From Rheinheimera sp. (GTDB lineage Bacteria; Pseudomonadota; Gammaproteobacteria; Enterobacterales; Alteromonadaceae), in contig NZ_JAUYGV010000006.1 of assembly GCF_030690345.1 (NCBI RefSeq), positions 1,054,001 to 1,118,000 of the forward strand: a stretch of DNA of 64,000 nucleotides. Reading direction: 5' to 3'. Every line of letters begins with the position of its first letter. The stretch's first letter is position 1. This document shows, in pieces, positions 7,947-43,306 of the stretch. A program made the position numbers and the translations under genes. Below the pieces are notes generated by a model. That model had not been told where the DNA came from, made no database searches, and saw only the letters and a program-made list of their open reading frames with translations.

Positions 7947-8996
7947 TTAGCTTTGAAACACGCTTTCCAGCAACCGGAATGTACCGGCGTCGGCATCCAG
8001 CTCAACGCGGCCACCTACCGGCACAATAAACTGCTGCTTTATATGGCCAATCATGGCGCCACGGTAGGCCGGTATATTCAGCGGCTTGATATGATCGTCA
8101 AAAATCTGGTCCATCGTCAGCCAGCCATAACCACCGCTGGGGCGACAGGCAGTGCATTCACCGAAAATAAAGCCGGCAATTTTATCCAGCGCCCCCATCA
8201 GCTTTAAGGTGCTGAGCATGCGATCAATGCGATAAGGCGCTTCTTCCACATCTTCCAAAAATAAGATTTTACCGCTGAAATCCGGCAGGTAAGGTGAGCC
8301 GGCCAAAGCGGTAAACACGGTTAAGTTACCGCCAATCAGCTCGCCCTGTACCTTACCGCCGTTAATGGTTACGGTGCGGTTTTGCCGTGCAACCAGCTCG
8401 TCTTTGGCGTCCAGCACATTTTGGTAGTGCATTAATTCGCGGTCGAAAAACAGCCGTTGAAACTGATCAGCATTAAAGCTGTTCCAACTGCCGGTGCCGT
8501 TCGGGCCATGGAAGCTGACTAAGCCGGTTTGGGCATGAATAGCATTGTGCAGTGCGGTAATATCGGAATAACCCAGTAAAACCTTGGGGTTGTTGCGGAT
8601 TAGCTTATAGTCCAGTAATGGCAGCAGGCGGGCCGCGCCGGAGCCCCCGCGCAGGCAAATAATGGCTTTTACTTCTTTGTCAGCAAACATGGCGTTAATG
8701 TCGGCGGCGCGCTCAGCGTCGGTGCCGGCTAAATGGCCGCGGCGTGCCGCCAGATTTTTACCGGTTTTTACTTTAAAACCGAGCGCCTGCATCACTTCCT
8801 GCGCTATTTGCAAGTCCAGCATATCATCGGTGGCTTTAGATGGGCTTACCAGCGCTACCGTATCGCCTTTGTTCAGCGGCAGCGGCAACAGACGTTTATT
8901 GCCGGCAGATGGCGCGGCCATTACGCTGCTGCAGCCGGCCAGTGGTAACAAGGCGGCAGCCAGAGTGCAGTTTTTTATAAATTGGCGTTTATCCAT
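7947..8996 (-). CDS. LD-carboxypeptidase (S66 family), exported
   Basis: Peptidase family S66, which removes the terminal D-Ala from murein tetrapeptides during cell-wall recycling. The protein is 349 residues. The N-terminus KRQFIKNCTLAAALLPLAGC looks like an export signal with lipobox LAGC; a single KR rather than RR makes Tat use uncertain. The nucleophile is the Ser in LLGYSDITALH, and GPNGTGSW, the Glu region GGNLTVF and FLEDVEEAPYRIDR follow the family pattern. E. coli LdcA is cytoplasmic; this one appears to be a lipoprotein, as in other S66 relatives. Confidence 0.85.
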   Translation of the reverse strand: MDKRQFIKNCTLAAALLPLAGCSSVMAAPSAGNKRLLPLPLNKGDTVALVSPSKATDDMLDLQIAQEVMQALGFKVKTGKNLAARRGHLAGTDAERAADINAMFADKEVKAIICLRGGSGAARLLPLLDYKLIRNNPKVLLGYSDITALHNAIHAQTGLVSFHGPNGTGSWNSFNADQFQRLFFDRELMHYQNVLDAKDELVARQNRTVTINGGKVQGELIGGNLTVFTALAGSPYLPDFSGKILFLEDVEEAPYRIDRMLSTLKLMGALDKIAGFIFGECTACRPSGGYGWLTMDQIFDDHIKPLNIPAYRGAMIGHIKQQFIVPVGGRVELDADAGTFRLLESVFQS

Positions 8997-22753: not shown

Positions 22754-23338
22754 ATGGAATTTATACAGAAGAAAAAATCGAATAAACATACATTCACACT
22801 GCATGATGATTATTTCAATTTTGCTTATGAAGATAAGTCTGGCTCCGGAGATACTGACTTCGACTATGCGGATTTTCCTCAAAAGTCGTCAGTTCAGATT
22901 GAGCAGAATGAATGGCTGAGAAATGTTGGCTATCTTTGGATAGCACTAGGTGTATTTCAGCTCGGTTATGCTATTTATACTGAGGCATCCTTGTCCGGAA
23001 AGGGGTTCTGGATCTTCATTGGCGCTGTATGTGCAATTTGGGCATATTTCTCAAAGGTCAAGTACACGGTTTTTCGTTCTGAACGCGGTAATATATTTAT
23101 AATTCAAGACAAAAATCATGACGAAATAATTAAGCAACTAAATATCAGAAAGAAATCACAGCTCTTGAAATGGTATGGCGATGTAAATCCAGACAACGAG
23201 CTTAAAAACGAAATAAAAAAATTCAATTGGCTTGTGGACCAGGGTGTACTAACAAAGGAAGAGTCTGAGAAAAAAATAGCTCAGGCGGAACTCCTGAAAA
23301 AAGACAACTTTGAGCTTCCGGGCGAGAGGTTGAACTAA
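22754..23338 (+). CDS. Unknown membrane protein with SHOCT-like C-terminus
   Basis: I do not recognise this 194-residue protein. The N-terminal 50 residues are charged. Two adjacent membrane segments occupy about 55-72 (VGYLWIALGVFQLGYAIYT) and 82-98 (FWIFIGAVCAIWAYF). The end, KKFNWLVDQGVLTKEESEKK, resembles a SHOCT oligomerisation motif. The gene is visibly more AT-rich than its neighbours, starts about 16 bp after a GTTATAG, and its stop is immediately followed by an attC-like palindrome. The three facts together suggest a mobile gene cassette. Without a database search no role can be given. Confidence 0.65.
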   Translation: MEFIQKKKSNKHTFTLHDDYFNFAYEDKSGSGDTDFDYADFPQKSSVQIEQNEWLRNVGYLWIALGVFQLGYAIYTEASLSGKGFWIFIGAVCAIWAYFSKVKYTVFRSERGNIFIIQDKNHDEIIKQLNIRKKSQLLKWYGDVNPDNELKNEIKKFNWLVDQGVLTKEESEKKIAQAELLKKDNFELPGERLN

Positions 23339-23339
23339 T

Positions 23340-23408
23340 GCCTAACAAAGTACTGCTAGGTACAAACTTACGCTACGCTTCGCTTTGCCTAAGAGCACTG
23401 CGTTATGT
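23340..23408 (+). other. Integron attC-like imperfect palindrome
   Basis: The element begins one base after the stop codon at 23338. The outer boxes are GCCTAAC (23340-23346, fits RYYYAAC) and GTTATGT (23402-23408, fits GTTRRRY at six of seven positions). The inner arms AAAGTACTGCTAGG and CCTAAGAGCACTGC pair imperfectly, leaving a central TACGCTACGCTTCGC region. Total length of 69 bp fits known attC sites (about 57-140 bp). No integrase is in the window. The folding and identity are inferred by eye. Confidence 0.45.
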
Positions 23409-23457
23409 GCGCATATATCAACGTCGTGTTAGTAACTGAAATATAAAAGGATGTATC

Positions 23458-23943
23458 TTGAAGAAGCTCGTATTGGTTTTATCGTTTATCTCAGGTTCGT
23501 TAATTGCCCAGGAAAGCACTTTTGACAGTCAATATTCTGTTGGTGTTGGTATGGGAGCTGCTTACAGTGGATTAGGCGCAAATTTCGCTCTTTTATCGAA
23601 GACCGACATGAAGTATGTCTCAGTCGGCTGTGTTGAATATAGTTCAAGATATGGCTCAACTTGCGGCTTCGGAGTCGGCTGGATAGTAACTGATCTATTT
23701 GATTCTGATTCAAATAAGCATGGCCTTGGTGTCTATGCAACCAAAGCAGGGCATGAGGTTTACGCGACTACGGAAAACTTTAATATTAAAGAAAATGAAT
23801 ATTATGGTGCCGGCGTTAGTTATACCTACTTTATGAATGGTATTGATAAACCCGGCTTTAATTTTGGCATCTCCGCTCATGCAACAAATGCCAAATATGA
23901 TGAAAAAATTAATGGTTTTTTACAGGTTGGCTATCAGTTTTAA
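23458..23943 (+). CDS. Small secreted/outer-membrane beta-barrel-like protein
   Basis: 161 residues from a TTG start with AAAGGATG upstream. The N-terminus KKLVLVLSFISGSLIAQ is a signal peptide. The rest alternates short aromatic and glycine-rich strands (SVGVGMGAAYSGLGANF, YYGAGVSYTYF) and ends in GFLQVGYQF, with the C-terminal Phe favoured by outer-membrane barrels. The family is not recognised. It is AT-richer than core genes and follows the attC-like site, so it may be a second captured gene. Confidence 0.6.
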   Translation: MKKLVLVLSFISGSLIAQESTFDSQYSVGVGMGAAYSGLGANFALLSKTDMKYVSVGCVEYSSRYGSTCGFGVGWIVTDLFDSDSNKHGLGVYATKAGHEVYATTENFNIKENEYYGAGVSYTYFMNGIDKPGFNFGISAHATNAKYDEKINGFLQVGYQF

Positions 23944-32822: not shown

Positions 32823-32896
32823 TGGAGCGGGTGGCGGGAATCGAACCCGTGTCTAAAGCTTGGGAAGCTTTCGTTCTGCCATTGAACTACACCCGC
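32823..32896 (-). tRNA. tRNA-Gly (anticodon CCC)
   Basis: A 74-nt cloverleaf on the minus strand including an encoded CCA. The acceptor stem GCGGGTG pairs with CACCCGC, the T-arm is GGGTTCGATTCCC, and the anticodon arm AAAGC-TTCCCAA-GCTTT has CCC in the loop. Closely matches E. coli glyU by memory. It lies at the left edge of the accessory peptide locus, on the side of its 5-prime end. Confidence 0.95.
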
Positions 32897-33287: not shown

Positions 33288-33354
33288 ACCAGAAATCCTC
33301 TTTTTTTACCGTTCGTCACTTTTGCTCAATCTTATTTCAATAACTCTCTACTAT
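33288..33354 (+). promoter_or_regulatory. Promoter region of the precursor operon with LytTR-like site
   Basis: ACCGTTCGTCAC at 33308-33319 fits the general LytTR half-site pattern [TA][AC][CA]GTTN[AG][TC]. A poorer copy lies 20 bp upstream (ACCAGAAATCC, from 33288) or about 21 bp downstream (ATCTTATTTCAA, from 33329). A possible -10 box TACTAT is at 33349-33354. The same CCGTTCGTCAC occurs again at 36452-36462, at nearly the same distance from a start codon. Regulation by the LytTR protein encoded at 41505-42245 is inferred. Confidence 0.5.
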
Positions 33355-33416: not shown

Positions 33417-33536
33417 ATGAAACTGGAAAACACAGTAGCACTAAACACTGAATTTGGCATCGCGGGCACATCACAATTACAAGTAGTTGGTGGCCCAATC
33501 TGCGTTGGCATCATGGTTGTTTTAATTCTTAATTAA
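33417..33536 (+). CDS. Double-glycine leader peptide precursor, copy 1
   Basis: A 39-residue peptide in two parts. The leader of 26 residues (starting MKLENTVALNTEF) ends in GTSQLQVVGG, fitting the double-glycine leaders of class II bacteriocins, microcins and peptide pheromones. The predicted core PICVGIMVVLILN is 13 residues, almost wholly hydrophobic, uncharged, with one Cys at core position 3. AGGA lies upstream of ATG. It is the first of four copies encoding the identical peptide. Predicted to be cleaved after GG and exported; modification of the core is possible but not shown. Family not recognised. Confidence 0.85.
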   Translation: MKLENTVALNTEFGIAGTSQLQVVGGPICVGIMVVLILN

Positions 33537-33562
33537 TTCACTTAAATAAAAGGAATCAAAAA

Positions 33563-33682
33563 ATGAAACTAGAAAATACAGTAGCACTAAACACTGAATT
33601 TGGCATCGCGGGCACATCACAATTGCAAGTAGTTGGTGGCCCAATCTGCGTCGGCATCATGGTTGTTTTAATTCTTAACTAA
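33563..33682 (+). CDS. Double-glycine leader peptide precursor, copy 2
   Basis: Encodes the same 39 residues as copy 1. The DNA differs at a handful of third-position sites only (for example CTG to CTA at codon 3, AAC to AAT at codon 5), so selection or gene conversion is keeping the peptide fixed. Preceded by AAAAGGAATC. Confidence 0.85.
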   Translation: MKLENTVALNTEFGIAGTSQLQVVGGPICVGIMVVLILN

Positions 33683-33707
33683 TTCACTTAAATAAAAGGA
33701 ATAAAAA

Positions 33708-33827
33708 ATGAAACTGGAAAACACAGTAGCACTAAACACCGAATTTGGCATCGCGGGCACATCACAATTGCAAGTAGTTGGTGGCCCAATCTGCGTCGGC
33801 ATCATGGTTGTTTTAATTCTTAACTAA
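33708..33827 (+). CDS. Double-glycine leader peptide precursor, copy 3
   Basis: Identical 39-residue product to copies 1, 2 and 4; the DNA shows silent changes only. The spacer before it is one base shorter than the others (GGAATAAAAA). Same AAAAGGA ribosome binding site. Confidence 0.85.
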   Translation: MKLENTVALNTEFGIAGTSQLQVVGGPICVGIMVVLILN

Positions 33828-33853
33828 TTCACTTAAATAAAAGGAATCAAAAA

Positions 33854-33973
33854 ATGAAACTAGAAAACACAGTAGCACTAAACACTGAATTTGGCATCGC
33901 GGGCACATCACAATTACAAGTAGTTGGTGGCCCAATCTGCGTCGGTATTATGGTTGTTTTAATTCTTAACTAA
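33854..33973 (+). CDS. Double-glycine leader peptide precursor, copy 4
   Basis: Identical 39-residue product to copies 1-3, with silent differences concentrated at the 3-prime end (GTC GGT ATT for Val-Gly-Ile). Downstream the repeated spacer sequence breaks down, marking the end of the perfect array. Confidence 0.85.
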   Translation: MKLENTVALNTEFGIAGTSQLQVVGGPICVGIMVVLILN

Positions 33974-34005
33974 CCCACTCAAATAAGTGAATAAGGAAAG
34001 TTAGT

Positions 34006-34122
34006 ATGAAAATTGACCATGTTGCAGAGTTGACAACCAGTATCGGTATCGCGGGATCTTCACAACTTCAAGTAGTTGGCGGCCTGCAGTGTATCAGTGT
34101 ATTTGTCGGTCATTTACTCTAA
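34006..34122 (+). CDS. Diverged double-glycine leader peptide precursor, copy 5
   Basis: A 38-residue relative. The leader differs at its start (MKIDHVAELTTSI) but shares GIAG-SSQLQVVGG. The predicted core LQCISVFVGHLL is different from PICVGIMVVLILN yet keeps the Cys at core position 3 and the hydrophobic character. Upstream is AAGGAAAG. The divergence suggests a two-component peptide (four doses of one, one of the other) or a separate signalling peptide. Not in the supplied long reading frames because of its size, but conservation of the leader makes it a real gene. Confidence 0.85.
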   Translation: MKIDHVAELTTSIGIAGSSQLQVVGGLQCISVFVGHLL

Positions 34123-34141
34123 TCACCGCCGCGTATCCGTT

Positions 34142-34210
34142 GCCGTAAGTTACGAAAATAAGCTGTGTGGATGTCTCGGCCTGCCGGGACAATTCCACCC
34201 TCCTTACGGC
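34142..34210 (+). ncRNA. Nested intergenic hairpin between precursors and modification genes
   Basis: Three stacked stems: GCCGTAAG (34142-34149) with CTTACGGC (34203-34210); GTGGA (34167-34171) with TCCAC (34194-34198); and TGTCTCGG with CCGGGACA around the tetraloop CCTG. The inner two make a nearly continuous 13-bp helix. There is no T run. Likely roles are partial attenuation or 3-prime protection of the precursor mRNA, so that small peptides are made in excess over the enzymes downstream. Inferred by eye. Confidence 0.65.
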
Positions 34211-34262
34211 GGTCGCAACATAGAGTCTACTATTGATTAAAAAAGCGTTACCGGAGCAAATA

Positions 34263-35231
34263 ATGAAAAAGAACGATCAAATAGAAGCTTTTCTGGCGTC
34301 GCCAGAAACGCGTCAAAAAACGATTAAGAATATTGAATTGAGTCGCAAGAAGAATCTACAACTTACGATTGTTAAGGAGTTACAAACACTCTTTGGCGAT
34401 AACCCTTTGCCTAAGCCAGAGTTGGTAGGGCAGATTATTAAAGAAAACGCACAGGAAGCTATTGATCTAATCATTGACGATACGATTAGGTTCCAGAAAA
34501 ACGACCATTTTTACGTTTATCCAATTGGTGGGCACTCAACTGCGTTCGCACAACGTATTGTATTGTCCAATAGCGACTATTTCGATTTAAGTATCGATGT
34601 TATCGACGCGGGCCTTTTGAATCGCTACAAAGCGCAGAGTAAAGCTAATCTCAGTCAGCGTGGCATCCAATTTTATGGCCGGCAAACCATTACCTACTTT
34701 ATCACTGCTGGCGGTTTAAAAGTGTCGTGCTGGGAACATCAAGTTGCGCAGGATAATTTTATTAACCAGTCGTGTAAGCAAGTGGGGCTAGATGGCGTAA
34801 AAGACGGAGAGCTGCGTTTCAACCCCTGCAATCACACAATGATGTATGAACAGGCGCAGACCAATGTCGTTGCTGTCACCTTGGAGTATAAAGCCAATAA
34901 ACGTCCGTTTAGTTTAATGTTTTCAGCGCAAGATCATATGCTTAAGTTCCAGAATCCATCGGATGAATTAGATTCAAGAGTTCAGCTAAGTATGCTGCTT
35001 CTGAAAAAAATGGATTCACACGCGGCATTACCCGTAATGAAAAAGTTTCTGAGCCACAGCAAACATTTTGTGCGCTGGTATGCAATGCAACAAATTCTCG
35101 GCATTGATGCCATGCAAGTCCTTGATGAATTACACGAAATGGCGAAGAGCGACCCCCATTCAGAGGTCAAACTCGCAGCACAACAAACTATTGCAATGAT
35201 CGAACAAAAGGAGCTTGCTCATGCCTGTTAA
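34263..35231 (+). CDS. HEAT-like protein related to the cupin-like partner, putative peptide-locus protein A
   Basis: 322 residues from ATG 34263, with CGGAG eight bases upstream; the longer reading frame from TTG 34233 is less likely. The N-terminal 65 residues are helical and charged. The centre (about 90-215) is beta-rich and resembles the corresponding part of the next protein (FYVYPIGGHSTAF against FFYRVPHDHNFNF), but the HxH is not kept. The C-terminus (about 240-315) has HEAT-like helices (FVRWYAMQQILGIDA). No known family is recognised. It overlaps the next gene by 11 bp. I infer a role in handling or modifying the precursor peptides, possibly as a non-catalytic partner. Confidence 0.7.
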   Translation: MKKNDQIEAFLASPETRQKTIKNIELSRKKNLQLTIVKELQTLFGDNPLPKPELVGQIIKENAQEAIDLIIDDTIRFQKNDHFYVYPIGGHSTAFAQRIVLSNSDYFDLSIDVIDAGLLNRYKAQSKANLSQRGIQFYGRQTITYFITAGGLKVSCWEHQVAQDNFINQSCKQVGLDGVKDGELRFNPCNHTMMYEQAQTNVVAVTLEYKANKRPFSLMFSAQDHMLKFQNPSDELDSRVQLSMLLLKKMDSHAALPVMKKFLSHSKHFVRWYAMQQILGIDAMQVLDELHEMAKSDPHSEVKLAAQQTIAMIEQKELAHAC

Positions 35232-36141
35232 TATTAATCTGGACCATATCACTGAATCTATTGAATTAGACGAATGCTACGAAGGCTTGCTGGATAGTAA
35301 ATTTAATCCTTATGATCAGGATAGCTTTCAAACAGTGGCTCCCTTGCTCAAGAAACTGAACAACAACAGAACGTTTTTGGCAGATGTTCTGATTAACGAA
35401 TTGGAAGAGCATTGTGCCAGTCAAACGTTGACAAACCGCTATACTCCTCAAGTTATCATGCTAAAGGGCGCACAAAAAGACGTGAGTTTTTTTATGCGAG
35501 CGAATATATGGTTACCTAAAAACGACCCTTTGTTGCGCGCATCAGGAGAAAAATCGTTTTTTTATCGGGTACCACATGATCATAATTTCAATTTTTTGAC
35601 CACCGGCTATATTGGCTCAGGCTATCACAGTGATTACTACGAATATGAATACGATAAAGTCATTGGTTACCCCGGCGAACAAGCAAATTTAAGATTTGTT
35701 GAACACAAGCAGTTGGGTGAGGGGCAAGTGATGTTATATCGCGCCTATAAAGATGTACATAACCAACTCCCGGCTGACGACTTGTCGGTCACGCTGAATA
35801 TTATGCCGACAATGATGTTTGCACATTTGCGTCCTCAATACATCTTTAACGAACAGTGTTCACAGGTCGAACGCACGACGGTTACAACCAATGGTTCCAT
35901 TGAGCCTGTGCTCTATTTGATAGCACAAAGCGGCAGTGAAAGAGGGAGAGAGTTTGTCGAGCATATTGCCCAACGCTCGGTGATTGAAGAGGACAGATTC
36001 AGAGCTATAAAAGCACTGACCTCTGTGAAGGTCACAGACAGCGATAGAGTCGATGTTCTGGAAAAATTCGGCTTGGCTTCATCTTCAAAAATGGTACGCG
36101 AAATGACTAAAGGTCATCAAGCAGCACTTGGCTACGCATAG
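35221..36141 (+). CDS. Cupin-like/HEAT-like protein with HxH motif, putative peptide-modifying enzyme B
   Basis: 306 residues from ATG 35221 (AAAGGAG upstream). Helical N-terminus, then a beta-rich centre with a possible metal site: VPHDHNFNFLTTGY (HxH near residues 119-121), SDYYEYEYD some 20 residues later, and a later His in YRAYKDVHNQLP followed by LSVTLNIM. That spacing recalls cupin-type non-heme iron oxygenases. The C-terminal 80 residues are HEAT-like (DRFRAIKALTSVKVTDSDRV). It is a paralogue of the preceding gene. Oxygenase or hydroxylase activity on the precursor core is a hypothesis; the fold itself is not confirmed. Confidence 0.65.
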   Translation: MPVNINLDHITESIELDECYEGLLDSKFNPYDQDSFQTVAPLLKKLNNNRTFLADVLINELEEHCASQTLTNRYTPQVIMLKGAQKDVSFFMRANIWLPKNDPLLRASGEKSFFYRVPHDHNFNFLTTGYIGSGYHSDYYEYEYDKVIGYPGEQANLRFVEHKQLGEGQVMLYRAYKDVHNQLPADDLSVTLNIMPTMMFAHLRPQYIFNEQCSQVERTTVTTNGSIEPVLYLIAQSGSERGREFVEHIAQRSVIEEDRFRAIKALTSVKVTDSDRVDVLEKFGLASSSKMVREMTKGHQAALGYA

Positions 36142-36151
36142 GAGAAATACA

Positions 36152-36367
36152 ATGTCATTGTTAACCGGAAACTCAGGATTGTTATTGTTTTTAGTCCCCG
36201 CATTTATCGCGCTTTACTTTTTGCCCACGATACTTGCATTTGTACTAAACCGTAAACACAAAATGCAAATACTCATCGCTAATGTCCCTGCAGGTGTGTC
36301 TTGGATCATGTGGTTTGCAATTCTGGCCTGGGCATTCACAGGCAAAGATAAGCCTACGGAGGCTTAA
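36152..36367 (+). CDS. Superinfection immunity family membrane protein
   Basis: 71 residues from ATG 36152 with GGAG upstream. Two membrane helices (LLLFLVPAFIALYFLPTILA and WIMWFAILAWAF) and the pattern ALYFLPTILAFVLNRKHKMQ, which fits the superinfection-immunity family (named after phage T4 Imm). In this setting it is a good candidate for self-protection against the exported peptides; phage exclusion is the other option. Last gene before a terminator. Confidence 0.75.
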   Translation: MSLLTGNSGLLLFLVPAFIALYFLPTILAFVLNRKHKMQILIANVPAGVSWIMWFAILAWAFTGKDKPTEA

Positions 36368-36401
36368 TTAACGCACTAAACGAACATCAAGCTTTGCTCC
36401 T

Positions 36402-36446
36402 AAAAGCCTCTTTACCTACGGCAATGGGTATCGGGGCTTTTCTTAT
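36402..36446 (+). terminator. Rho-independent terminator ending the precursor/enzyme unit
   Basis: AAAAGCC (36402-36408) pairs with GGCTTTT (36435-36441), extended inward by TACC/GGTA, and is followed by TCTTATT. It separates the precursor-enzyme-immunity unit from the YIP1-exporter-regulator unit. Confidence 0.7.
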
Positions 36447-36450
36447 TCCA

Positions 36451-36500
36451 GCCGTTCGTCACGCTTTTTTGCCGAAATTCACTTTTTAGTCCCTGATATT
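36451..36500 (+). promoter_or_regulatory. LytTR-type direct repeat and promoter before the YIP1 gene
   Basis: GCCGTTCGTCAC (36451-36462) and GCCGAAATTCAC (36471-36482) are direct repeats with starts 20 bp apart, the two-turn spacing expected for a LytTR dimer. A possible -10, GATATT, lies at 36495-36500. The first repeat shares CCGTTCGTCAC with 33309-33319. Binding by the LytTR regulator of the locus is inferred. Confidence 0.55.
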
Positions 36501-36551
36501 GCTCTGACTTGATAGGCTTAGCCCGACCTTTAACCTCAACAGGATTCTATT

Positions 36552-37262
36552 ATGTCAACTACAACTTCAAACTTAGGAATGGCATTTGTCGACGCAATAG
36601 TAGCGCCGAACTCGCTGTTTAAAACCTATCAACATATGAGTCGTTATGGGCACTTTGTCCTCTTGGGCGTGCTGTTAGCTGCGGTATTGAGTCAGTACTT
36701 TTTTTTCTCAAATATGAGCGACCAACACTTGCTCAATCAGCAGCTCGCGCAGGTCTCAGACCTGACTAAAAGCGAGTTGGTGGTAGTGAAAGATGCGATG
36801 GAAAAAAGCCTTCCCTATACCGGTATTTTTGTTGGTGGTATGCAAGCGGCGAGCATTTTGCTGCAGATATTGCTGATCAGTGCGTTCGTGTTGGTTGTTG
36901 CCAAAATGCGGCCGCAATCAGCGGTATCGTCTTTTAAAGATACAACCGCATTAGTGAGTTGGTGTTATATGCCCGTGGTCGCAAATGCCCTTGGTTTGGT
37001 ATTGCTTGCTTTCACGGCGTCCTCACCCGACCTGCCTCTTTCTGTAGCGAGTTATGGATCTTTGAATGAGCTGGTGCTCCACCTGGACAACAATCACCCT
37101 CTGTCCGGATGGGCACAATCTCTCACTATATTCGACCTGTGGGTAGTGGCATTGCTGGCAGTCGGCTTTAAAAATAAGCTGGCGCTTACTGGTAAAAATG
37201 CTTTCGTAATGGCGTTGGCTCCCTTTGCCATTGTCTATGGCGTCTGGTTTTTGATTGCCTAA
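36552..37262 (+). CDS. YIP1 family membrane protein
   Basis: 236 residues with about five membrane helices, matching the YIP1 family (opening AIVAPNSLFKTYQHMSRYGH and the later DTTALVSWCYMPVVANALG). Bacterial YIP1 proteins have no fixed function. It starts the second transcription unit of the peptide locus and shares its regulatory motif. A role in immunity or as an accessory exporter subunit is a guess. Confidence 0.78.
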   Translation: MSTTTSNLGMAFVDAIVAPNSLFKTYQHMSRYGHFVLLGVLLAAVLSQYFFFSNMSDQHLLNQQLAQVSDLTKSELVVVKDAMEKSLPYTGIFVGGMQAASILLQILLISAFVLVVAKMRPQSAVSSFKDTTALVSWCYMPVVANALGLVLLAFTASSPDLPLSVASYGSLNELVLHLDNNHPLSGWAQSLTIFDLWVVALLAVGFKNKLALTGKNAFVMALAPFAIVYGVWFLIA

Positions 37263-37287
37263 AGGTGATTCATTGAGGAGCAAAGCA

Positions 37288-38430
37288 ATGAAAAAATTTA
37301 TATCACTTATCGCTATTGTCGCTTGTGTCAGTTTCTTTGCGCTATCGAAAACTTCTTCCTCGCCTGTCGAAGATGTGGTGTTTAGTCTCTATACAGTGCA
37401 AGAACAGGCTGTAGATGACAGCATACTTGCATCAGGCACTTTCACCTTTGCTAATAAGATAGCGCTTCGCTCTGAGGTCATTGGCAAGGTGACAAGATTG
37501 TATGTGAAAGAAGGCGACATGATTTCAAAAGGGGACATGCTGCTTGAGTTGGATAAAACCGCATTTATTACTGATGTTGAACAAGCCCAAGCCTCGGTCA
37601 ATATTCAAGTGGCGGAGATAAAAAAACTTCAAGAACTTAAAAACGAGGCAATTCGAAAAAGCGCGCAAATGGAAGCACTGTCGGTTCGCCAAATCATTGA
37701 TACAGATACTCTGGCAAAAAGTCATAGTGATGTTCGTATTGCCGAAATTGATTTGGAGTCGGCAACGCATCGGCTATCTCAGTTAAAAGCTGTACTTGCA
37801 CAGCGTGAAGATGCATTGAGCAAAGCGGTATTTGTCGCACCGATCGATGGCTTAGTACTTAATGTCGATATCAAAGAAGGTGAGACAGTTATTGCCGGAA
37901 CAACCAATATTGTGGGTAGCGCTTTGCTCACCCTTGCAGATGTCAGCACTTATGTAGCGCAGATCCGTGTCGATGAAGCGGATCTCGGCAACGTATCGAT
38001 TGGGCAACGTGTCGACGTGTTTTCAGCGGCGATGCCGACAACACCCCTGATGGGTGAAATTGCATCTGTCAGCACCATGGCAAAGCAGCAAAGCACCAAT
38101 CAGGGCCTGTTTTATAAAGTCCAGGTAAAGCTAAATTCTGCTGAATATCTTTTCCCGGGGATGAGCTGTCGTGCAGAAGTCGTAGTCAATAAACATGAGC
38201 ACGCGCTTTCAGTTCCTATCGCCGCGATCCAAAAGTCAAATGGTGAACATTTTGTATGGGTTACCAATGATAATAAAGTCGAAAAGCGTACAGTGCGATT
38301 AGGTTTGTCTTCTGATATCGAGCAGGTCATTACTGCTGGCTTACAAAAAAATGAAACGGTGTTAACTGGTCCAAGCAGGGGGCTGGAGCAACTCAAGCAC
38401 GGAGCCAGTGTTTTGGTTCAGGGTGGGTAA
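37288..38430 (+). CDS. MacA-like periplasmic adaptor (HlyD/RND-type membrane fusion protein)
   Basis: 380 residues from ATG 37288 with GAGGAG upstream. One N-terminal membrane anchor (KKFISLIAIVACVSFFALS), then a biotinyl-lipoyl-like half (SEVIGKVTRLYVKEGDMISK), a coiled-coil hairpin (about 105-180), the second lipoyl half (FVAPIDGLVLNVDIKEGETV), and beta-barrel and membrane-proximal domains. It links the MacB-like ABC transporter to an outer-membrane TolC, which is not encoded here. Only 4 bp separate it from the ATPase gene. Confidence 0.9.
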   Translation: MKKFISLIAIVACVSFFALSKTSSSPVEDVVFSLYTVQEQAVDDSILASGTFTFANKIALRSEVIGKVTRLYVKEGDMISKGDMLLELDKTAFITDVEQAQASVNIQVAEIKKLQELKNEAIRKSAQMEALSVRQIIDTDTLAKSHSDVRIAEIDLESATHRLSQLKAVLAQREDALSKAVFVAPIDGLVLNVDIKEGETVIAGTTNIVGSALLTLADVSTYVAQIRVDEADLGNVSIGQRVDVFSAAMPTTPLMGEIASVSTMAKQQSTNQGLFYKVQVKLNSAEYLFPGMSCRAEVVVNKHEHALSVPIAAIQKSNGEHFVWVTNDNKVEKRTVRLGLSSDIEQVITAGLQKNETVLTGPSRGLEQLKHGASVLVQGG

Positions 38431-38434
38431 CTTT

Positions 38435-39160
38435 ATGACTCAGCAACCTTTACTCGAATTACGCGGTATCACCAAGTCTTATTCTATGGGAGAACAAAAG
38501 TTCTTAGCGCTCAAAGGTATTGACCTGACTATTATGCCGAATGAGTTTATCGCAATAACAGGGCCGTCAGGCTCAGGTAAGTCAACATTGATGAATATAC
38601 TTGGATGCCTGGCCAAAGCGGATTCAGGCAGTTATCGTTTAGCAGGAAACCTTATTGCAGATGCCGATGAAGATGCATTGGCAGGATATAGAAATCAATC
38701 CATAGGGTTTATTTTTCAAAGCTTTAACTTATTTCCTAAACTGACGGTACTGGACAATGTTATTTATCCATTGCGTTTTCAACGGGGGCGGGCAGCGCAC
38801 AGGAAAAGCCGGGCAATTAAAGCGCTCAAAGATGTTGGCTTGGCAGACAAATTAGCTAATTTACCGAACCAGCTATCCGGTGGTCAAAGGCAGCGGGTTG
38901 CCATAGCTCGTGCATTGGTTACAAATCCCGATATTTTGCTGGGTGATGAGCCAACGGGAAACCTGGATAGCAAAACAAGTGCAGAAATTATGGCGTTGTT
39001 TCGTGATCTGCATGCAAATGGTCAAACCATCATTTTGGTTACCCATGAACAGGAAATTGCAGAGCAATGTCAGCGAGAGTTGAGGTTAGTGGATGGACAA
39101 ATCGTCAAGGATGAAACGAAAAATACCGCTGAGCAACACGCACTTGGAGTAGCGTCATGA
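38435..39160 (+). CDS. ABC transporter ATPase, MacB/LolD type
   Basis: 241 residues from ATG 38435. Walker A GPSGSGKSTLMN, Q-loop in FIFQSFNLFPKLTV, signature LSGGQRQRVAIARAL, Walker B DILLGDEPTGNLDS and H-loop VTHEQ are complete. The LolD/MacB subfamily pumps peptides, lipoproteins or antibiotics by mechanotransmission from the periplasm. There is no C39 peptidase domain, so this transporter cannot itself cut the double-glycine leader. Its stop overlaps the permease start (ATGA). Confidence 0.95.
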   Translation: MTQQPLLELRGITKSYSMGEQKFLALKGIDLTIMPNEFIAITGPSGSGKSTLMNILGCLAKADSGSYRLAGNLIADADEDALAGYRNQSIGFIFQSFNLFPKLTVLDNVIYPLRFQRGRAAHRKSRAIKALKDVGLADKLANLPNQLSGGQRQRVAIARALVTNPDILLGDEPTGNLDSKTSAEIMALFRDLHANGQTIILVTHEQEIAEQCQRELRLVDGQIVKDETKNTAEQHALGVAS

Positions 39161-40395
39161 AAAAATTTGCGCATGGAATTTATGAAGGTGGGGTATCAGC
39201 GATACAGTCAATATTCGCACACAGTTTTCGTAGTGCACTTACTACACTAGGCATTATTATTGGTGTCAGTGCGGTTATCGCCGTTGTGTCTATTATGGAA
39301 GGGCTTGGTGCGACAGTAGGTAAACAATTGCAAGACTTAGGTTCAGAAATGGTCACGCTTAAAGCACATACCAGCACTGAAAAAGAGATGCTTGGCATGA
39401 CCAGTAAGATATCTTATGAAGATTACCTCTATCTAAAAAATAAAACCGACAATGTTCAATACATGGCGGCAAAAGTGAAAGCGTTTTCGCTTGGGTCCGA
39501 TATTCAATTTGCCCAGAAGTCTATTACGACACAAATTATTGGTACAGAGAGTGAATACAAAAACGTCGTCAACGTTTACCCTGCATCTGGCCGTTTTCTG
39601 ACTGAGACTGACGATCTTAAACGACGCCGGGTGGTGTTTCTGGGTAGCTCACTTGTAGAAAAGCTCGGCCTTAAAGCTGACCCGGTGGGCGAGTTTGTGA
39701 CTTTGTATGGCGAGTGGTTTCGGGTTATTGGCGTGGCCGAAGAGAAAGGCTCATTATTTGGTTTTGATCAGGACAATTACGTGATTGCACCGCTGAGCAC
39801 TATCGAGTCTATCAGTGGCCAACGAGGTAACTTAGGCGTCGATATTGTGTTTGTTCCTGATGTAAATGTTGCGCAATCTGCAGTTATAGAGCAAATGACC
39901 CAATTAATGCGCTATAAATATAAAATAAATGATCCTGCAGATGATTTTTTTGAGTTTGAAACTGCGGAAAAGACACGCAAACAATTTAGCGATATCACTG
40001 ATTCAATTACCTTTGTCGCGGCAGGTGTGGTTGGAATAAGCTTATTAGTTGGCGGAATTGGCATAATGAACATCATGTTGGTTTCGGTAACAGAGCGCAC
40101 AAGAGAGATAGGTATAGCAAAAGCATTAGGGGCAACCTCGACTATTATTCTCATTCAATTTTTGGTCGAAGCCTGCGTTTTGGCATTGTTTGGCGGCGGT
40201 GTGGGTATTGTAGTTGGTTATATTTTTGCATTGTTTATTCTGATGGTAATGCCTGTAGCTGCTGCCGTCTTAGTACCATTGTGGGCGATATGGTTGGCAC
40301 TTGGGTTTAGTTTCACCATAGGTGTGGTATTTGGCATTATGCCCGCGATCAAAGCTTCCCGTCTTGACCCAATAGATGCATTACGGTATGACTAA
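39157..40395 (+). CDS. MacB-like ABC transporter permease
   Basis: 412 residues with the MacB topology: one N-terminal helix (SALTTLGIIIGVSAVIAVVS), a large periplasmic domain (about 50-280), and three C-terminal helices with the FtsX domain (VAAGVVGISLLVGGIGIMNI, VTERTREIGIAKALGAT). Together with the adaptor and ATPase it forms a tripartite exporter. In this locus the likely cargo is the mature peptides. Confidence 0.93.
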   Translation: MKKFAHGIYEGGVSAIQSIFAHSFRSALTTLGIIIGVSAVIAVVSIMEGLGATVGKQLQDLGSEMVTLKAHTSTEKEMLGMTSKISYEDYLYLKNKTDNVQYMAAKVKAFSLGSDIQFAQKSITTQIIGTESEYKNVVNVYPASGRFLTETDDLKRRRVVFLGSSLVEKLGLKADPVGEFVTLYGEWFRVIGVAEEKGSLFGFDQDNYVIAPLSTIESISGQRGNLGVDIVFVPDVNVAQSAVIEQMTQLMRYKYKINDPADDFFEFETAEKTRKQFSDITDSITFVAAGVVGISLLVGGIGIMNIMLVSVTERTREIGIAKALGATSTIILIQFLVEACVLALFGGGVGIVVGYIFALFILMVMPVAAAVLVPLWAIWLALGFSFTIGVVFGIMPAIKASRLDPIDALRYD

Positions 40396-40420
40396 TAAAA
40401 AAATAGAAACGGAACTTTTT

Positions 40421-41527
40421 ATGCGTTTTTTTCGGGAAATATTGGTCACCAGCAAAGCCTATCGCTTCACTATGCTCGCTATGTTTGTCGGACATTTTAT
40501 TTTTACCTGGTCGGTCATGCATTCATTATTCGATTCATCACAAAACATAACCGAGCATCTGATTGTTCGCGGGTTTCTCGAAGCGTTGCTGTTAGTCCTA
40601 ATATGTCATTGTTTGGTCAGGCCCTATTTGCGGCTCAACATGCTCGCCATTTCAATGACCAGCCAAATGATAGCCAGAGCCTTCGTTTATCTGATTTTTG
40701 TTTCGGTAATTTACTTCTTAATTTCCTACTCTCTTGGAAAAACTGACGTCCTTAGCGCCACTGATATCAGTCGTATTAATATTCAAAACCAATCCGGATT
40801 TGTCGCAGGAGAGAGCAATTTATGGTTGACCGCTATTTTGGGGATCGGTGGAAGTTTTATCACGTTAACGACCTGGAGTATGCTTTATCTCATTTTTAAA
40901 TATCAAATAAATAAGAGAGAGCTGCAAGAAGAAATGAATAGTATTCAAATTCAACAACTCACAAGCCAGCTCTCACCACATTTTTTGTTTAACACACTAA
41001 ACAGTATCCGTGCATTGATCTTTGCTGATCAAGAACGGGCGTCAAACGCAATAACCTTACTCGCTGATTTGCTTAGGTCTCAGATGCAGACGCAGTTGCA
41101 ATCCCAAACAACCTTTAAGTCTGACTGGGCGACAACAAAAAACTATTTGAATATTGAGCTAATTCGGTTTGAAGATCGAATGACAGTAGATACTGATTTC
41201 GATGATGAAATATTGAATCAACCACTGCCAACACTGACCCTGTTGACCCTTACAGAAAATGCCATAAAACATGGTATTTCACCGAGCAGCAAGCTTGGTT
41301 TTATCAAGATAAGCGCAAAGAAAATTTCCACCACGCAATGGCAAATTATACTGACTAACTCAGTATACAATGACTTAAAACAGCACGGCACACAGATCGG
41401 GTTGCGCAACGTGAGAAAAAGATTTATCTTACTATTTGGTAACAACTTCACTTTCAGTACTGCGCTGGAAAATCAAACCTACACAGTGAAAATGGAACTT
41501 CCTTATGTTGAGAGTATTATTGGTTGA
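40421..41527 (+). CDS. LytS/YehU-type sensor histidine kinase
   Basis: 368 residues from ATG 40421, chosen because ACGGAA lies six bases upstream; ATG 40388 and 40376 would add 11 or 15 residues and overlap the permease. Four membrane helices fill the first 170 residues and no extracellular domain is present. The His_kinase family block is TSQLSPHFLFNTLNSIRAL (phosphoacceptor His). The ATPase part has LTLTENAIKHGISPSSK and GIGLRNVRKRF-like features. The transmembrane sensor could detect a hydrophobic peptide at the membrane, as AgrC-like kinases do; this is inferred. Confidence 0.9.
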   Translation: MRFFREILVTSKAYRFTMLAMFVGHFIFTWSVMHSLFDSSQNITEHLIVRGFLEALLLVLICHCLVRPYLRLNMLAISMTSQMIARAFVYLIFVSVIYFLISYSLGKTDVLSATDISRINIQNQSGFVAGESNLWLTAILGIGGSFITLTTWSMLYLIFKYQINKRELQEEMNSIQIQQLTSQLSPHFLFNTLNSIRALIFADQERASNAITLLADLLRSQMQTQLQSQTTFKSDWATTKNYLNIELIRFEDRMTVDTDFDDEILNQPLPTLTLLTLTENAIKHGISPSSKLGFIKISAKKISTTQWQIILTNSVYNDLKQHGTQIGLRNVRKRFILLFGNNFTFSTALENQTYTVKMELPYVESIIG

Positions 41528-42245
41528 TGATGAAAAGTTAGCGCTTATGGAAATGCAGCGACTACTGAAAAACATCCCTGATGTCGAGGTGGTCGGACAA
41601 GCTATAAATGGCAAAGAAGCGTTAACTCTTATCGAATCGACCTCACCTCACTTGGTGTTACTCGACATTCGTATGCCTGAAATGACGGGGCTGGAATTTG
41701 CTGAAAAAGTGCCATCCCATATTCACTTTGTATTTTGTACGGCCTACAGTGAACATACCTTCGAAGCGTTTGCTCTAAATGCGGCGGGCTATCTAATGAA
41801 GCCGATCGAACCGACGCGCCTGGCGGCGGTTGTGCAAAAAGTGAAGTTGATGGTTGATGAAGATGTGAGCGCTGAAGCCCTTGTTGAAGACGCTTGTCTT
41901 CCTGATTCTCACGGGTTGCTGCTTAAATCTGGACAAGAGTACCAAATTATCAAAATTCGAGACATTGACCGTGTCGAGTCAGTGGGAAATCACGTTGCAA
42001 TTTATGCACTAAACAAAAAGCTCTACCTTCACGTCTCGTTGTCTAAAATTGAGAAAAAACTGAATCCACATGATTTTATTAAGGCTAGTCGTAGTGATAT
42101 CGTGCGGTTGAGTAGCATAAAAACACTGGAAGATGGCATGGCTACTGGCACGCTAAGTGTCATACTGAACACCGGTCACGAAATAGAAATAAGTCGACGC
42201 CAAGCGCACAGTCTGCGTAAATCATTTAGTTTAGACATTAAATAA
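41505..42245 (+). CDS. LytTR family response regulator
   Basis: 246 residues. The receiver domain (1-120) has LLVDDEKLAL, phosphoacceptor Asp in LVLLDIRMPEMTG, and Lys in GYLMKPIEP. The C-terminal LytTR DNA-binding domain (about 140-240) has IRDIDRVESVGNHVAIYAL and FIKASRSDIVRLSSI. It overlaps the kinase gene by 23 bp, a cognate pair. LytTR regulators of the AlgR/AgrA/LytR type bind direct repeats about 21 bp apart; suitable motifs lie at 33308 and 36451. Confidence 0.93.
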   Translation: MLRVLLVDDEKLALMEMQRLLKNIPDVEVVGQAINGKEALTLIESTSPHLVLLDIRMPEMTGLEFAEKVPSHIHFVFCTAYSEHTFEAFALNAAGYLMKPIEPTRLAAVVQKVKLMVDEDVSAEALVEDACLPDSHGLLLKSGQEYQIIKIRDIDRVESVGNHVAIYALNKKLYLHVSLSKIEKKLNPHDFIKASRSDIVRLSSIKTLEDGMATGTLSVILNTGHEIEISRRQAHSLRKSFSLDIK

Positions 42246-42415: not shown

Positions 42416-42886
42416 TTACAAACCCTTTAGTTGTTCTGTTAAGCGGTCTATCTCAATGTCTATTGCCCTAACATCGGTGTCGTACTGCGCAGCTACGGCG
42501 GCCATTTCTTCCGACAGGCTTTCGTTCCTGACTGAGCCGGCGAGGTTATTAGCGGAGTAACGTTTTGACTCTTTCAGCTGCGCCATTTTGTTATTGCGCT
42601 CTGTCAGTTTGTTGGCTTTATCAGACTGCAGCCGGTTGATGTTGATACGCATATCACGCTTTTTTACCGACTCGCTTAATCTGTCCATGGTTGCCGCCGC
42701 TTCTCCGGCTGCGCTGTTATTCTGCGGCAGCATGGCTGCGGTTTCTTCTCTTGCGTAATCCGTTACCTGCACATCTTCGCTGCAGGGGATTTGACTGTAG
42801 GTGATTACACCCTTTACTTCACATTTATACACGTTTGCTGATGCGAAGAGCGGAAGCAACAGTGGCAGAGTTAATAACGTTTTCAT
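42416..42886 (-). CDS. DUF4124-type exported protein with coiled coil
   Basis: 156 residues. The signal peptide MKTLLTLPLLLPLFASA is followed by the DUF4124-like start NVYKCEVKGVITYSQIPCSED, with two Cys. The rest is charged coiled coil. The family function is unknown. It marks the return to core-genome composition after the peptide locus; the 170 bp between 42245 and 42416 show only a weak 6-bp hairpin and nothing else I can defend. Confidence 0.75.
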   Translation of the reverse strand: MKTLLTLPLLLPLFASANVYKCEVKGVITYSQIPCSEDVQVTDYAREETAAMLPQNNSAAGEAAATMDRLSESVKKRDMRININRLQSDKANKLTERNNKMAQLKESKRYSANNLAGSVRNESLSEEMAAVAAQYDTDVRAIDIEIDRLTEQLKGL

Positions 42887-43021: not shown

Positions 43022-43306
43022 ATGCGTTTTATGCTAAGTGCGTTGCTTGCGTTTGTATTGCTACCTGCGGTGGCAATGGCCACGCCACAATTCAGCCAGT
43101 CTGAATGTCAGAAGTTAAATGCCCAGCGGCTTGAGGTGCGCAGGCAGTTGCGTCAACCTTACAATGGTGAACATGGCCAGCAGTTGCAGGCGCGACTAAA
43201 AGAGCTGGAACAATTACTGAAACAGCATTGCCGCCGGCCGGTTAAAGATCCACCTGCAGTTCCTGCTTCGGTTCCTGTTCCGGCACCGGTTCAATCGGTT
43301 CAGTAG
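43022..43306 (+). CDS. Small exported protein with proline-rich tail
   Basis: 94 residues from ATG 43022, where a signal peptide begins (MRFMLSALLAFVLLPAVAMA); the earlier in-frame codons would put a hydrophilic stretch before it. The mature part is a short Gln/Leu helix with two Cys, then a tail VPASVPVPAPVQSVQ. The last 65 bp overlap antisense to the convergent membrane-protein gene. No family recognised. Confidence 0.6.
   Translation: MRFMLSALLAFVLLPAVAMATPQFSQSECQKLNAQRLEVRRQLRQPYNGEHGQQLQARLKELEQLLKQHCRRPVKDPPAVPASVPVPAPVQSVQ

Follow-up and report, generated by a model that had tools for sequence, protein, structure and literature searches.

Several described systems bear on the locus that is the subject of this report. 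Within pathways for ribosomally synthesized and post-translationally modified peptides (RiPPs), the MNIO/DUF692 enzymes and the JmjC-like cupin PbsQ are portrayed as metal oxidases that act, sometimes with a partner protein, on an encoded precursor (PMC12257519). YknWXYZ of Bacillus, made up of a Yip1 protein, an adaptor, an ATPase, and a permease, is described as a pump for the SDP peptide toxin (PMC4887032). LytTR quorum systems that work with bacteriocin-type peptides, such as sil, combine a histidine kinase and a LytTR regulator with direct repeats at the promoters they control (PMC2766830). Here we describe a gene set within 64,000 nucleotides of DNA from Rheinheimera sp. (contig NZ_JAUYGV010000006.1, positions 1,054,001 to 1,118,000; the whole stretch is called the window below), which runs entirely on the + strand from five short precursor peptide genes, through two proteins that we call A and B, to an exporter and a LytTR response regulator. 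While RiPP pathways, LytTR circuits, and YknWXYZ pumps are already known, searches of an open-access library directed at the A–B pair, its precursor family, and their apparent link to the thiol-dioxygenase fold gave no description of them.

The locus shows the hallmark of a RiPP pathway, a precursor with a conserved leader and a variable core lying beside a conserved candidate enzyme. We consider it fairly probable that the pathway encoded here is RiPP-like, with A handing the precursor to a metal enzyme, B, with export of YknWXYZ type and control by a LytS/LytTR pair. A more far-reaching proposal, which we hold to be evenly balanced between right and wrong, is that these genes represent a new RiPP class. 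In this class a thiol-dioxygenase-fold iron enzyme (B) and a catalytically dead, HEAT-bearing paralogue (A) would modify hydrophobic peptides that share a leader; the system would be resident in about a third of the sampled species of one alphaproteobacterial family, probably the Sphingomonadaceae, and in Gammaproteobacteria would have been joined to an exporter of YknWXYZ type and a LytTR switch, to serve as a peptide signal or bacteriocin. The genes at the centre of these proposals are the following.

33417..33536, + strand: precursor copy 1, 39 amino acids, VGGxxC
33563..33682, + strand: precursor copy 2, protein identical to copy 1
33708..33827, + strand: precursor copy 3, protein identical to copy 1
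33854..33973, + strand: precursor copy 4, protein identical to copy 1
34006..34122, + strand: precursor 5, 38 amino acids, shares SQLQVVGG, with a differing core (GGLQC...)
34263..35231, + strand: protein A, diverged B relative without a conserved histidine and with HEAT repeats at the C-terminus; proposed partner that presents the substrate
35221..36141, + strand: protein B, thiol-dioxygenase-like cupin with H119, H121, and H180; proposed modifying enzyme

The first-pass annotation of this DNA, made from the sequence alone, had placed five leader peptides ending in SQLQVVGG here, and all five are present, as four identical proteins and a fifth. The four genes for the identical protein differ at eight nucleotide sites, all eight of them silent and in third positions, which points to translation, together with constraint or gene conversion. 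The ATG at 34263 chosen earlier as the start of A is likewise upheld, in preference to a longer open reading frame (ORF) that begins with TTG at 34233, and the reading frames of A and B overlap by 11 nucleotides.

The linkage of such peptides to the A–B pair extends well beyond the window. A scan of contigs with a pattern that fixed the HDH stretch of B gave 345 matches, 333 of which encode B relatives, and the contig-scan loci studied are the best 80 of these 333. A small ORF with the leader pattern and a ribosome-site score precedes A in 70 of 83 A–B sets (85 less two at contig edges), of which at least two (L083, L089) look spurious. In a held-out test, a peptide model built from one half of the loci was run against every small ORF of the remaining half, and the reverse, with halves that share close relatives. 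This gave 85 matches among 10293 small ORFs (43/4852 and 42/5441), and 84 of the 85 lie in the zone upstream of A, which contains 288 and 292 of the small ORFs in the two halves and 42 matches in each. The lone match outside the zone, in L041, is upstream of A if A starts at 8016 and not at the rule-chosen start. A held-out peptide was found in 67 of 80 loci (34/40 and 33/40).

Whole genomes give the same picture. Profile searches were made in 249 genomes of an alphaproteobacterial family (f63), which we infer from the named scan matches, mostly Sphingomonadales, to be the Sphingomonadaceae in the wide sense. B occurs in 87 of them, mostly once per genome, the peptide in 82, and both in 80, with B only in seven and the peptide only in two. 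Genomes without B carry the peptide in 2 of 162 cases, and the co-occurrence has a Fisher P of 4e-54, a value that ignores shared ancestry. Most peptide matches (79 of 84) are on the same strand as B and no more than 2.5 kb upstream of it, at a median distance of 994 bp. The neighbourhood comparison proposed at the outset, with the thought that the two proteins might always occur without such peptides, thus turned out the opposite way (80/87 genomes). Two genomes show a different arrangement (G885, C1:1746390; G946, C20:1319): the peptide lies about 40 kb from B or on another contig, and the B match has an internal stop.

The constant part of the peptides is the leader. In an alignment of 54 chosen precursors it follows the frame L-x(4)-[GA]-x-x-G-[SAT], with one Leu and one Gly kept in at least 90%, and none of the 54 has a credible match in Pfam or NCBIfam, where the lowest E values, each from a single member, were 0.044 and 0.011. 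The cores differ. VGGxxC followed by a hydrophobic stretch is the core in most Gammaproteobacteria of the contig scan and in some Sphingomonadales, DDxIVVIMxxVYE-like cores are found in Erythrobacter and Novosphingobium, and VGDD-like and EP/DP-like cores in other loci; L032 and L035 each have EP-type plus GG-type precursors. Peptide type follows the B tree with three changes, the fewest possible, where shuffled labels average 34.9 and 33.9 in two labellings (85 rows, 81 labelled, with types assigned partly by eye and near copies included). Type II consists of the leftover rows; the first type I pattern already demanded a Cys, types then being set by eye, and L032 and L035, labelled IV and then relabelled I, gave the same three changes. 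Peptide and B therefore appear to descend together, with near copies contributing to the signal, and no residue separates the B proteins of peptide types I and II at 80%. In five Sphingomonas loci (L025, L027, L047, L053, L056), two A–B sets stand side by side, each with its own precursor type, plus exporter-like genes.

The window peptides by themselves could be taken for those of a classical class II bacteriocin locus, with double-glycine leaders processed by a C39 peptidase and A and B as accessory proteins. VVGG precedes the core in all five, and in the 25 V-GG precursors listed from 18 A–B sets a Cys follows the GG every time, three residues on, or two in L035 (one I-GG in L081, in a DD-type precursor, has no such Cys). 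GG at the leader end is not conserved across the family, however: V-GG occurs in only 18 of 83 A–B sets, and in most relatives DD, EP, DP, GD, or others replace it, with the leader retained and both leader and A–B common to all types. Moreover, Peptidase_C39 (PF03412) was not found in the whole Rheinheimera genome at E <= 0.01 by a search that matches 8 of 14 control genomes, the two ABC (ATP-binding cassette) exporters examined beside A–B, in L047 and L049, have no C39 domain, and the window exporter is of MacAB/YknWXYZ type. A reading of the leaders as classical double-glycine ones is thus not supported, and there is, in our estimation, only a very small chance that this is a class II locus.

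Protein B is the proposed enzyme. Sequence searches of Pfam, NCBIfam, and the PDB gave nothing credible for its central part; among solved structures B alone gives no match, and its profile only unconvincing ones (E 0.06 and worse). No RiPP enzyme is among the Pfam families listed for B, and the C-terminus matches HEAT_2 weakly in 15 of 65 members (best E 0.0011). The conserved core, P-H-D-H ... G-x(11)-H, is a cupin pattern that does not have the Glu four residues past the second His. H119, H121, H180, and Q182 were invariant in the first eight B proteins, which were found without a histidine pattern. In 86 B proteins H119, D120, H121, D178, H180, and Q182 are invariant, HDH having been demanded by the contig-scan pattern and D178, H180, and Q182 not. 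Some 30 further residues of B are invariant as well. The B of L014, among the first eight, has Asn between the first two histidines.

Profile comparison with hhalign connects this core to thiol dioxygenases of the PF05995 type. An alignment of eight B proteins (A1) scored 40.25 against five PF05995 enzymes (A5) and 36.5 against a second set of six, and 17 diverse B proteins scored 40.8 and 38.8; in 150 column shuffles each, the maximum was 22.0 (A1 against A5) and 21.8 (the 17 against the second set). In these alignments the three histidines, in HDH and D-x-H, are in register over about 170–190 columns. The reference rows come from a phylum search that found CDO_I in 8 of 150 genomes, seven of them over the cut-off, and one row, L122, is a close relative of solved 3-mercaptopropionate dioxygenases; CDO_I was found in 0 of 59 genomes of the order. 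Other cupins were tried as kin of B and rejected. Cupin_2 (13 rows) and Cupin_8 (24 rows) scored 12.5–16.4 against three B alignments, with shuffles, run for one of the three, reaching 18.8 and 21.7. Taken singly, the JmjC-type Cupin_8 (PF13621) gave 12.9, 13.3, and 16.4, the shuffles for the first having a mean of 15.3 and a maximum of 21.7. The cysteine dioxygenase (CDO) set itself scores 24.2 against Cupin_2. On these sequence comparisons, we read B as a distant relative of thiol dioxygenases with a candidate three-His metal site and altered second-shell residues.

Cysteine dioxygenase has a Ser-His-Tyr catalytic triad. At the positions aligned with it, B has Ser or Thr, then Asn193 (86/86), and at position 195 Met (64), Leu (12), Val (7), or Ile (3). 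These altered positions favour an explanation without any modification, by which a bacteriocin or pheromone would be exported as is, and A–B would be a chaperone, an immunity factor, or a sensor. The exporter, the Imm_superinfect protein, and the LytS/LytTR pair described below would suit such a locus, and HEAT repeats bind peptides in many settings. B nevertheless keeps its three histidines and the other invariant residues, more than binding seems to need, and the tracking of peptide type along the B tree also counts against this explanation. We think an unmodified product unlikely.

Protein A is related to B, as had been noticed from the start: the two profiles align over 145 columns (P 1.5e-6, probability 90%), A with the second half of B. 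The profile of A is weak against the CDO set (P 0.029). HEAT_2 is found in 44 of 58 A members at E <= 1, and the best matches of A among solved structures are HEAT-type repeat proteins. The residues conserved in at least 90% are M1, G150, G182, L247, R271, W272, L290, and A306, and they include no histidine. The first-pass annotation had placed both proteins outside any known family, and the view of the pair as undescribed is supported. A model of A, built from 58 of the rows concerned, matched in 83 of 87 loci, among which L015 and L024 represent a single place. It missed L086, at a contig edge, and three divergent loci (L014, L017, and L018) where an ORF of 236–243 amino acids takes A's place, in one of them with a weak HEAT match. 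An apparent A–B fusion in L094 proved to be a frame break in A instead.

The genes for immunity, export, and control that are proposed to act with A–B, and two candidate regulatory sites, are listed here.

33309..33319, + strand: candidate LytTR half-site in front of the peptide operon, CCGTTCGTCAC
36152..36367, + strand: Imm_superinfect-family small membrane protein, 71 amino acids (Pfam 2.2e-11, above cut-off); candidate immunity
36452..36462, + strand: second candidate LytTR half-site, exact CCGTTCGTCAC copy, upstream of yip1
36552..37262, + strand: Yip1-family membrane protein, YknW-like (Pfam Yip1 2.2e-9)
37288..38430, + strand: MacA/YknX-like periplasmic adaptor (Pfam: HlyD-type, MacA/RND-type adaptor)
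38435..39160, + strand: MacB/YknY-like ATPase (Pfam: ABC ATPase)
39157..40395, + strand: MacB/YknZ-like permease (Pfam: MacB_PCD, FtsX)
40376..41527, + strand: LytS-type histidine kinase (Pfam His_kinase PF06580)
41505..42245, + strand: LytTR response regulator (Pfam Response_reg + LytTR)

Pfam thus names the immunity-type membrane peptide, the YIP1 protein, the MacA/MacB-like exporter, and the LytS/LytTR pair as the first reading of the sequence had done. Yip1 protein, adaptor, ATPase, and permease are adjacent in that order, and the YknW model NF052650 gives 29.5 bits against a cut-off of 110. In PHROGs the Imm protein belongs to 'immunity to superinfection' and A to a family of unknown function (E 0.0039); PADLOC gave no match for the four locus proteins tested. 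Relatives carry this cassette to differing degrees. In L020, L021, and L022, all four exporter genes, the kinase, and the regulator lie near A–B, downstream and in the window order, with an Imm_superinfect relative after B. L032 (divergent) and L035 (mixed) have exporter, kinase, and regulator near A–B in other orientations, L041 and L013 have exporter parts without kinase and regulator, and L023 and L024 have partial sets. L016 shows no more than an ABC ATPase following B and a weak match to the kinase over a short length, the contig of L019 measures 3.7 kb, and no exporter/two-component cassette was seen in L014, L017, or L018. In Sphingomonas-type loci (L047, L049, L053, L056), exporter parts adjoin A–B. 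In two Alteromonas loci, B is immediately followed by another ABC ATPase and then a second ORF (L013, 9875–11896; L032, 9906–11925); the second ORF of L013 is an ABC-2 type permease, and these genes form a candidate immunity or export pair.

Possible control sites stand at two promoters of the locus, with one CCGTTCGTCAC copy ahead of the peptides and another ahead of yip1. The corresponding promoters of two Shewanella loci both have ACCGTTTATCAC-type sites, doubled ahead of the peptides with a 20-bp period, and the pattern finds no others in those loci. LytTR-type repeats of this period are clear upstream of the peptides in L021 and L022, and the window has the arrangement in part. LytTR operators have repeats of 9–11 nucleotides and spacers of 11–13 nucleotides (PMC4847170), and the 20-bp period fits these ranges. 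We regard the CCGTTCGTCAC- and ACCGTTTATCAC-type sites as putative LytTR operators.

A mechanism can be proposed for the RiPP-like pathway. Sequence shows the precursor family, its linkage to A–B, the three-histidine profile match, and the domains of the exporter and the two-component system; the steps that follow are proposed. Short precursors, in which the conserved leader (L-x(4)-G-x-x-G) is N-terminal and the C-terminal core is hydrophobic, would be made together with A and B. A, a B relative that lacks the ligands and has HEAT repeats, would bind the leader and present the core to B, and B, a divergent cupin of the thiol-dioxygenase branch, would hold iron through the three histidines and oxidise the core. 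Where the core is of the VGGxxC type, one would look first to the Cys as the residue modified, by oxidation for instance. The other core types would need a different site, so that a chemistry common to all may involve the backbone or a hydrophobic residue near the leader–core junction. The Yip1–MacA–MacB complex, of YknWXYZ type, would export the product, and the Imm_superinfect protein would protect the producer. LytS/LytTR may sense the product, as in autoinduction, or envelope stress, and would activate both the peptide–A–B operon and the exporter operon.

Several observations weigh against this pathway. A Sphingomonadales-heavy alignment of 65 B rows (A3) matches the two PF05995 sets weakly (19.2 and 21.1, P 0.08 and 0.04). 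All 93 B rows score 32.5 and 24.6 with default settings, and 24.7 when context pseudocounts are switched off, a setting in which the maximum of 200 shuffles was 23.3 and a reversed set gave 17.0. The strength of the match thus varies with the alignment, and the signal needs divergent B proteins; the reference sets are small (five and six rows), and one A5 row, L123, is below the Pfam cut-off. PF05995 is also absent from the 20 Pfam families listed for 65 B proteins at E <= 10, with filters that drop most matches above 0.1. The altered triad positions make ordinary thiol dioxygenation by B doubtful, and since many cores have no Cys, a single Cys chemistry cannot serve all of them. No leader-cleavage enzyme was identified, 13 of 80 loci gave no held-out peptide match, and no precursor was recognised in the Vibrio plasmid locus L014. 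As for control, finding two CCGTTCGTCAC copies is not significant in itself, since 14 of 100 shuffles also have two, and L020 has no match to the site pattern. Lastly, none of the 41 type II loci has relatives of the window exporter in the fetched stretch, some of these contigs being short.

This last observation, together with the occurrence of B in 87 of 249 f63 genomes, mostly as a single copy, suits a further explanation, by which the modified peptide would be an intracellular or membrane-resident regulator or factor in Sphingomonadales that gammaproteobacterial loci have made into an exported one. In many Erythrobacteraceae, A–B lies among housekeeping-like genes (RuvX-, LepB-, PdxJ-, and cytochrome-oxidase-like, by eye), and these gene families recur in 18–23 of 80 loci. 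Such a setting, with no window-exporter relative in the fetched stretch, is unlike an ordinary mobile bacteriocin. The exporter parts beside A–B in L047, L049, L053, and L056 count against a resident peptide, which seems to us distinctly unlikely. The original suggestion of a bacteriocin or signalling system with a new maturation protein can therefore be kept as to the peptide locus, the exporter, the two-component system, and the undescribed pair, and finds no support as to classical double-glycine leaders.

Members of the family occur in both Gammaproteobacteria and Sphingomonadales. With the window genome included in each case, B turned up in 6 of 394 genomes of the order when a single sequence was the query; with a profile, it turned up in 6 of 384 for the order and in 15 of 398 for the phylum. 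Two plasmid records contain a relative, from Alteromonas stellipolaris and a Vibrio, and in viral contigs 49 stretches fit the pattern, none of which encodes one.

In the window, the locus begins beside a transfer RNA (tRNA) gene.

32823..32896, - strand: tRNA-Gly(CCC), left edge of the insertion, context

The lie of the genes on one strand and their higher AT content were noted at first sight and are confirmed, the G + C fraction being 0.385–0.454 in the ten 1-kb bins of 33–43 kb and 0.466–0.578 in the other window bins, except 0.397 at 23–24 kb. A single congener, G339, provides the evidence for an empty site: left flank, tRNA-Gly, and right flank (from window position 43055) lie close together there, with about 390 bp between tRNA and right flank where the window has about 10 kb. 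A second genome, G254, has the left flank and the tRNA, and its right flank was not found within the fetched stretch; neither genome has a B match. Pfam scans of the locus proteins list no integrase, no convincing attachment repeats flank the insertion, and Rfam at the gathering threshold finds the tRNA as the sole match. The locus is most simply seen as an insertion of roughly 10 kb next to tRNA-Gly. In two congeners, a partial tRNA-Gly copy of about 46 bp lies near the full gene (L131, about 2500–2545; L132, 8021–8066), which would suit a tRNA that has been used for insertion more than once. A DUF4124 protein is encoded on the opposite strand (42416–42886), where the inserted stretch ends on the right. 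The second AT-rich stretch of the window, at 22754–23943, contains two small ORFs without an obvious name, for a membrane-like protein of 194 amino acids and a protein of 161 amino acids with a signal-like start.

If B modifies the peptides, a fold known from the oxidation of small thiols would have given rise to an enzyme that matures peptides alongside a pseudoenzyme, and much of one bacterial family would carry precursors without a credible Pfam or NCBIfam match. The locus is also a candidate Gram-negative peptide signalling system and possibly an overlooked route to modified peptides.

How the locus compares with described systems can now be set out. The thiol dioxygenases (cysteine, 3-mercaptopropionate, and mercaptosuccinate dioxygenases, PF05995) share with B a cupin-like profile and a three-His site without the Glu of ordinary cupins. 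Unlike them, B ends in a HEAT-like region and comes with a paralogue and a peptide gene; the Pfam model does not list it, and Asn and aliphatic residues occupy positions of the Ser-His-Tyr triad. MNIO/DUF692 enzymes and PbsQ resemble the proposed A–B pair as metal oxidases, sometimes with a partner protein, that act on an encoded precursor, and B does not align with the JmjC-type Cupin_8. In contrast to the sil-type LytTR quorum systems, the window locus is Gram-negative, has no C39 transporter, and places an enzyme-like pair between peptides and exporter. With YknWXYZ it shares the same four parts, and in the window these are linked to peptide genes and to a LytS/LytTR pair.

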